The position numbers and the translations under genes are program-made. Positions 12,937 to 13,201 of a stretch of 64,000 bases of DNA are shown piece by piece. This DNA comes from Peredibacter starrii (GTDB taxonomy: Bacteria > Bdellovibrionota > Bacteriovoracia > Bacteriovoracales > Bacteriovoracaceae). The notes below the pieces were generated by a model. That model saw only the letters and a program-made list of their open reading frames with translations, was not told the DNA's origin and searched no databases. The DNA lies in assembly GCF_034259205.1 (NCBI RefSeq), contig NZ_CP139487.1:2232001-2296000 (forward strand), read 5' to 3'. How positions within the stretch are numbered: position 1 is the stretch's first letter; the number at the start of each line of letters is the position of its first letter.

Positions 12937-12993
12937 AAGTCGAACTCCTCAAAAGGAATCAACCGGTTCAAGTGCGAATGTAGGTGGCAGTGT

Positions 12994-13117
12994 AAAGAAG
13001 AAAGAGAAGAATCTCTTTCGCGCTTTAGCTGTTTTTCGCCCGCAAGCTGCACTCAAATCGGCGTTTTAAATTTCATTCTTTACTGCGTGCTAATTCGTCA
13101 TGAATCCGAGTGGATTC
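12994..13117 (-). promoter_or_regulatory. Structured leader between the poly-Cys ORF and metN
   Basis: Minus-strand RNA holds two clear hairpins. GAATCC/GGATTC (13117-13102, 6 bp, tetraloop) begins 16 nt after the leader ORF stop. GAAAGAGA/TCTCTTTC (13019-13000, 8 bp, tetraloop) is followed by UUCUUU, a weak terminator-like tail. A CGCC/GGCG pairing lies between. These could form an attenuation device coupled to ribosome stalling on the cysteine codons. No SAM or other known riboswitch core is recognised. The mechanism is inference. Confidence 0.4.
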
Positions 13118-13133
13118 CAAGGTTTAATTTAAA

Positions 13134-13163
13134 TTAGCAACAACAACAGCAAAGTCTGTTCAT
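13134..13163 (-). CDS. Poly-cysteine leader peptide (MNRLCCCCC)
   Basis: A nine-codon ORF reads ATG AAC AGA CTT, then TGC TGT TGT TGT TGC, then TAA: Met-Asn-Arg-Leu followed by five Cys. It lies about 200 nt upstream of metN on the same strand, just after the 13199 gene. A promoter-like element (13201-13173) would start transcription within a few bases of the ATG, and no Shine-Dalgarno is present. Leaderless poly-Cys uORFs that act as cysteine-responsive attenuators are known in mycobacteria. By analogy, cysteine shortage would stall ribosomes here and alter expression of the transporter operon. Confidence 0.6.
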   Translation of the reverse strand: MNRLCCCCC

Positions 13164-13172
13164 ATGATGCGC

Positions 13173-13201
13173 ATACTAACAGCGGTTTTTTGGCCTGTCT
13201 A
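13173..13201 (-). promoter_or_regulatory. Predicted sigma-70 promoter for the poly-Cys leader and metNIQ
   Basis: Minus strand: TAGACA (13201-13196), 17-bp spacer, TAGTAT (13178-13173) preceded by TG one base before it (extended -10). The -35 overlaps the stop codon of the upstream gene. A start 7-10 nt downstream would fall at 13166-13163, at the ATG of the poly-Cys ORF. Confidence 0.55.

Follow-up and report, generated by a model that had tools for sequence, protein, structure and literature searches.

Leaderless upstream open reading frames with runs of cysteine codons are known from mycobacteria (Canestrari et al., 2020, as cited in PMC9031893 and PMC13236596), where they act as cysteine-responsive attenuators; a sequence-only reading of the present locus had relied on this comparison. 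Candidate cysteine leader peptides with Cys runs near the stop codon have also been described for actinobacterial cys and cbs operons (PMC1262725), and a spacer of Candidatus Pelagibacter ubique is listed with a "SAM-II/SAM-V riboswitch" in PMC2704228. Among open-licence papers we found none that links a SAM-II riboswitch with Bdellovibrio or metN and recognised none that combines a Cys leader peptide with a SAM riboswitch, and the passages of one such paper on SAM-II and deltaproteobacteria contained no placement of SAM-II in this group. Riboswitches of the SAM-II class are OFF switches, in which abundant SAM lowers expression.

In the 64,000-nucleotide stretch of DNA analysed here (the window), a metNIQ-type importer operon is preceded by a spacer of 262 nt, which reaches to a gene ending at 13199 on the same (minus) strand. 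We propose that the leader in this spacer holds two sensors in series, a SAM-II switch and, in front of it, a lineage-specific poly-Cys attenuator, and we put the probability of this reading at about 0.5. The ORF, the aptamer, the operon and the complementary stretches are all present, and the following features are referred to below:

13201-13173, minus strand: promoter-like site TAGACA-17-TAGTAT (9/12 consensus matches; one found against 0.5 expected in shuffles)
13163-13134, minus strand: nine-codon ORF MNRLCCCCC, candidate near-leaderless cysteine leader peptide (from the sequence)
13154-13131, minus strand: strand 1, the Cys codons and stop, which can pair with 13096-13078 (1:2)
13118-13076, minus strand: strand 2 region, with the Cys codons (1:2) or 12999-12955 (2:3) as alternative partners
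13117-13102, minus strand: hairpin GAATCC-ACTC-GGATTC (from folding)
13067-13013, minus strand: almost certain SAM-II riboswitch aptamer, ACGCC-GATTTGA...GCTTGC-GGGCG...CAGCTAAAGCG (covariance model, and Rfam below gathering)
13019-13000, minus strand: weak terminator-like hairpin GAAAGAGA-TTCT-TCTCTTTC followed by TTCTTT (one found against 0.3 expected in shuffles)
12999-12955, minus strand: strand 3 region, which can pair with 13118-13076
12950-12945, minus strand: metN Shine-Dalgarno site GAGGAG (by eye from the sequence)
12936-12214, minus strand: metN-like ATPase, 240 aa (TIGR02314, 270.3 bits, cut-off of 499.7 not reached)
12217-11570, minus strand: metI-like permease (NF008049, 155.6 bits, cut-off of 212 not reached)
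11559-10777, minus strand: metQ-like substrate-binding protein (PF03180, 252.4 bits, above cut-off)

The gene upstream of the spacer (15190-13199, 663 aa) combines a ferritin-like domain with a weak VioB match, a Fer4_19 domain and two CDGSH stretches. Transcription may read through from this gene into the leader.

The element at 13067-13013, which lies between the poly-Cys ORF and metN and had been overlooked in the sequence-only reading, can with little doubt be assigned to the SAM-II class by homology. The conserved blocks GATTTGA, GCTTGC and GCTAAAG are all present in this order, together with a P1 of 4 bp (CGCC/GGCG). A pattern based on these blocks gave matches in 20 of the 368 genomes of the phylum, its backwards control matched one genome (G003), and 12 of the 20, the window included, share a near-identical aptamer. 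The matches in the other eight genomes (G302, G068, G308, G236, G221, G145, G344 and G367) were rejected: by eye they are without the shared aptamer frame, and model R1 is silent there at E <= 0.001. Using a covariance model built from the alignment of 11 relatives, with the window left out, the aptamer was found in the 64 kb of the window with 78.5 bits (E 2.2e-18), the next best match having 11.6 bits. Across the phylum the model identified 14 of 368 genomes, 11 of them being the training set and the window, G333 and G208 being new. In a permissive Rfam search of the spacer, RF01726 (SAM-II; 19.3 bits, E 0.21, gathering 44) and RF00521 (SAM_alpha; 16.6 bits, E 0.16, gathering 36) matched at the same place and on the same strand; at the gathering threshold, which is a cut-off of the library and not a biochemical definition, Rfam places SAM-II neither in the window nor at the loci of the 11 relatives. 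RF01726 alone turned out to be unusable in this phylum, with weak matches in 181 of 290 genomes and none of the 290 reaching the cut-off, and the best RF01726 match of the genome (1839714, 26.8 bits) was dropped; by eye it resembles part of a coding region.

P1 is paired in 97.9% of cells, with one both-sides change (C-G to A-U), one mispair and three of the four pairs invariant, and the P2 pseudoknot (GUGC/GCGC in the window) is paired in 81.8% of cells over 12 sequences and has no both-sides change. The covariation of P1 and P2 together was not above controls (49 of 500 shuffles did as well, and a +2 slide did better), and the conservation of the aptamer lies mainly in its sequence. Of the 12 leaders with the aptamer in this phylum, 11 are richer in C than in G over the 60 nt downstream of it, and by eye a CTGCC-like word is repeated among them. 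Rho might load in this region; for Rho-dependent termination the C excess is no more than suggestive.

The genes behind the aptamer point to methionine and sulfur metabolism. MetQ (PF03180) was identified in 8 of 368 phylum genomes at E <= 1e-10, and in seven of these (G000, G275, G154, G028, G260, G346 and G089) the aptamer is located before metN; in the eighth (G062) metN lies directly behind another frame and there is no aptamer match. A second MetQ of G260 is situated at a contig end (C154), and its leader falls outside the readable sequence. In other genomes the aptamer precedes cystathionine gamma-synthase (G178), cysK followed by a metF-like frame, with metF named by eye (G287), or MTHFR/metF (G336 and G333), and in G330 (L181, 1834-2, minus strand) it precedes one open frame consisting of a MetX-like acyltransferase and then a cystathionine gamma-synthase part, a possible MetX-MetB fusion. 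A gene of methionine, cysteine or folate-sulfur metabolism is found next to the match in 12 of 14 genomes, the exceptions being G046 (GNAT) and G208 (30.3 bits, doubtful). Because the aptamer is present in the window and precedes metN in nearly all MetQ-bearing genomes, SAM is most likely the signal for the operon, and methionine or a closely related compound its substrate. SAM-II riboswitches thereby become likely regulators of the import and synthesis of methionine in Bdellovibrio-like bacteria.

Furthermore, 80 MetN loci outside the phylum were searched with the covariance model. One of them, from an alphaproteobacterial MAG (L062), has a match of 38.3 bits (E 4e-7), located some 50 nt upstream of metN. 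Its leader carries the aptamer, and its MetN groups within the clade formed by the phylum's eight MetN, which suggests a transfer of the aptamer-metN unit or else a mis-binned contig. Four Halomonadaceae loci (L097, L134, L120 and L116) show partial, weaker matches before metN (14.3-21.2 bits, E 0.011-0.64), with GCGCCGATTTG...TTGCGGGCGCC...GCTAAAAGGG in the leader sequences, and at one Halomonadaceae locus, that of Phytohalomonas, RF00521 passes its gathering score. In the same four leaders the SAM-II-like aptamers are followed by what by eye are apparent strong GC-rich terminators before metN. It seems that SAM-II before metN recurs across groups.

In front of the aptamer, the nine-codon ORF with five terminal Cys codons described in the sequence-only reading is indeed present (ATG AAC AGA CTT TGC TGT TGT TGT TGC TAA, 13163-13134, minus strand), and so are the two hairpins reported between it and metN, at 13117-13102 and 13019-13000. 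The promoter whose start was said to coincide with the ATG could be retained in part: there is a promoter-like site, its 9/12 match being weak evidence for a promoter, and 9 nt separate the end of its -10 box from the ATG. The predicted start would lie at the ATG or a few nucleotides upstream of it, so that the ORF would be near-leaderless and the exact coincidence is lost. As the 20 nt upstream of the ATG show nothing that resembles a Shine-Dalgarno sequence and the promoter-like site ends 9 nt upstream, the ORF would need leaderless or near-leaderless initiation. A second, weaker promoter-like site, detected in a laxer scan (8/12), ends 10 nt before P1 of the aptamer, and a transcript could also begin past the ORF. 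The best promoter-like site of the window ends 108 nt before P1; the laxer scan of the 11 relatives revealed a site within 36 nt of P1 in seven and none in the other four.

To judge whether the Cys run is more than chance, its frequency is informative. The genome of 4,153,408 bp contains TGYx5 in 7 copies, spread over 5 places; the four other places lie within long stop-to-stop frames, and the run in the leader is the only one in the genome outside long frames. At the genome's TGYx5 rate about 2e-4 matches would be expected in the 262-nt spacer, an estimate made after the fact. These numbers, and the position of the ORF behind the best promoter-like site and within a structure stabler than shuffles, speak against the strongest rival explanation, according to which the SAM-II riboswitch is the sole regulator, the Cys run is nothing but a TGT-rich stretch due to chance and the mini-ORF is unused. 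We nevertheless regard this explanation as a serious possibility, if at less than even odds. The promoter before the ORF is weak and another weak site lies past it, runs of five TGT/TGC codons are common in the phylum (295 of 368 genomes), and a short ORF with a Cys cluster is missing from all 11 other SAM-II leaders (searched from 400 nt upstream to 250 nt downstream of the aptamer) and from all 80 metN loci (searched over as much as 700 nt upstream of metN). Among 30 loci with five-Cys runs, one per genome and drawn from the 295 genomes, no further leader-like ORF was found; in two of the 30 (L196 and L203) the run is not covered by a frame of 100 codons, and in both a start codon upstream of it is lacking. 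A search in the genus for four Cys codons followed by a stop, in which 30 of 55 places were examined, yielded no leader. A single one of these places, with the ORF MFTLCCCC (L227, in G009), lies outside long frames, but its spacer separates opposite-running flagellin-like genes (named by eye) and it was rejected as a leader.

The other 25 genomes of the genus that were examined, several of them incomplete, contain no MetQ, and therefore the nearest relatives cannot test the conservation of the Cys run. The alignment of Cys codons upstream of metN homologs, which had been suggested as a check, was only partly possible for this reason and came out against conservation. In the genomes compared here the poly-Cys ORF is found in one only, and conservation gives it no support. 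The idea that the operon senses cysteine has other grounds in its favor, namely a genome-unique Cys run, a sulfur operon, a promoter-like site and a fold stabler than that of shuffles. Taking both sides together, we assume that the chance of a working cysteine attenuator in front of the SAM-II switch is roughly one in two.

The predicted folding of the leader is part of these grounds. The whole leader has a fold z of -3.21, better than 200 of 200 shuffles, and for the ORF domain (13163-13075, 89 nt) the fold z is -2.92, with 1 of 200 shuffles as good; in these models the surroundings of the ORF look non-random. The 2:3 duplex (13119-13074 with 13000-12953) has an energy of -33.9 kcal/mol, which was reached by 0 of 2000 shuffles on either side and is matched at 5 of 6384 window positions, itself included, and the helix encloses the aptamer and the hairpin at 13019-13000. 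The 1:2 duplex alone was equalled by 32 and 97 of 2000 shuffles (1.6-4.9%), and a duplex between the aptamer loop and the segment ahead of metN by 84 of 2000. A duplex between the Cys codons and the aptamer's 3' element was discarded, 525 of 2000 shuffles being as good. With Turner 2004 parameters the probability of 2:3 increases from 0.06 in the free RNA to 0.995 with 13163-13137 masked as by a stalled ribosome. In robustness runs with varied temperatures, starts and ends (12 per parameter set), masking flips the fold in all 12 Turner 2004 runs, where P(2:3) of the free RNA reaches 0.27 at most. With Turner 1999 parameters it does so in 9 of 12 runs, and in the remaining three P(2:3) on masking is 0.34. 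None of the 12 Andronescu 2007 runs shows a flip driven by masking, as 2:3 dominates there without a ribosome.

We further infer a transcription start, translation of the ORF, a switch with a direction and effects of two ligands, which would act as follows. The SAM-II riboswitch, present by homology, would lower the expression of the importer when SAM is plentiful, as known for its class. A ribosome would enter the poly-Cys ORF at or near the 5' end and, upon shortage of Cys-tRNA, would stall on the Cys codons; stalling would free strand 2 from these codons, and the freed strand 2 would pair downstream of the aptamer, with the segment that leads up to the metN Shine-Dalgarno site. This pairing would take the 5' arm (GAUUCC) of a small hairpin over the Shine-Dalgarno site, and expression would go up. 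In its full form, in which translation of the mini-ORF decides the fold around SAM-II and import answers to cysteine by stalling and to SAM by binding, such a two-input leader is rather doubtful. The modelled opening cost of 12951-12945 falls on masking from 5.67 to 3.82 kcal/mol, which fits an ON response upon stalling, but the bases of the Shine-Dalgarno site do not become more accessible on average (mean unpaired probability 0.353 before and 0.302 after masking), which gives no support. With the aptamer forced to fold, P(2:3) is 0.999 and the opening cost 4.13; in the model, SAM acts in the same direction as stalling and opposite to the expected OFF. The SAM step may proceed via the weak terminator or via Rho, or may need the pseudoknot, the folding programs working without pseudoknots.

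It is improbable that the 2:3 helix around the aptamer merely serves structure or stability, with the Cys codons being part of an inverted-repeat-rich addition that senses nothing, as this leaves a Cys run that ends in a stop codon at a sulfur operon unexplained. The absence of any equal among the shuffles of the 2:3 helix and its preference by the Andronescu parameters without a ribosome are in line with such a role, and so is the promoter-like site close to the aptamer in seven of the 11 relatives, by which the stretch before the aptamer looks like an addition.

With respect to the importer, the top family matches are MetN, MetI and MetQ, the NCBIfam cut-offs being missed for MetN and MetI and the Pfam cut-off being passed for MetQ. 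The match of the window's MetN spans only positions 1-241 of the 343-residue MetN model, and in the seven other MetQ-bearing genomes the MetN frames, counted from a point 40 aa ahead of the P-loop up to the stop codon, comprise 245-248 aa; across the whole clade the C-terminal regulatory part seems to be absent. In E. coli MetN, the C-terminal part lets methionine inhibit transport. Because the window's MetN seems to be without it, RNA control may bear more of the importer's feedback. The N-terminus of MetQ (11559-10777), MKTFIALLLVSLNAFAYNPSS, is a signal peptide in which by eye no lipobox cysteine is seen, and therefore MetQ is probably a soluble periplasmic protein rather than a lipoprotein.

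The genome encodes two proteins of family PF00291 that pass models for cysteine synthase, and two enzymes of family PF01053. Of the latter, one belongs to the cystathionine synthase/lyase group but stays below the equivalog cut-offs, and the other is weaker. A frame of 1256 aa that contains an S-methyltransferase domain is probably MetH. We infer that imported methionine can feed SAM, and perhaps cysteine through transsulfuration; since methionine may feed cysteine in this way, cysteine control of a methionine importer would be sensible. A model along the lines of the original proposal, in which the poly-Cys attenuator is the sensor of the operon and the importer takes cystine, has the presence of the ORF in its favor but is very improbable, and cystine as the substrate is unsupported, given the SAM-II aptamer in the same leader, the best matches to MetN, MetI and MetQ, the lower score of the window's MetN against the L-cystine ABC ATPase model TcyN (202 bits versus 270 bits for the MetN model) and the relatives' aptamers, which precede metN, cystathionine gamma-synthase, cysK, metX and metF.

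Compared with described SAM-II riboswitches (metA motif; RF00521, RF01726), the aptamer shares the blocks GATTTG, CTTGC and GCTAAAG, a short P1 and the location before methionine or sulfur genes, and the proximity of a promoter-like site to P1 (at most 36 nt in 7 of 11 relatives) is a further likeness. It differs in the four pairs of P1, in a score below the Rfam gathering value, in a P2 without covariation support and in the phylum, Bdellovibrionota; moreover, about 95 nt with an ORF separate the presumed start from the aptamer in the window. With the mycobacterial poly-Cys uORFs, as far as the citing papers portray them, the ORF has in common its very short length, the terminal consecutive Cys codons, the start codon at or near a predicted 5' end and the sulfur operon, whereas here it occurs in one genome only and in another phylum, the operon encodes an importer and not cysteine biosynthesis, and a SAM-II aptamer follows downstream. 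The candidate leaders of the actinobacterial cys and cbs operons likewise have Cys runs near the stop and no convincing terminator, Rho having been suggested there as an alternative, but they can be aligned among mycobacteria, and the passages describing them mention no riboswitch alongside the peptide. If the poly-Cys ORF is functional, a ribosome-based cysteine sensor and a small-molecule riboswitch would be combined on the leader of one operon. In the Pelagibacter spacer, as it is listed, SAM-II also shares its leader with a second sensor, SAM-V, the two presumably sitting in tandem; both sensors bind SAM there, whereas here the other one would be a translated leader peptide.
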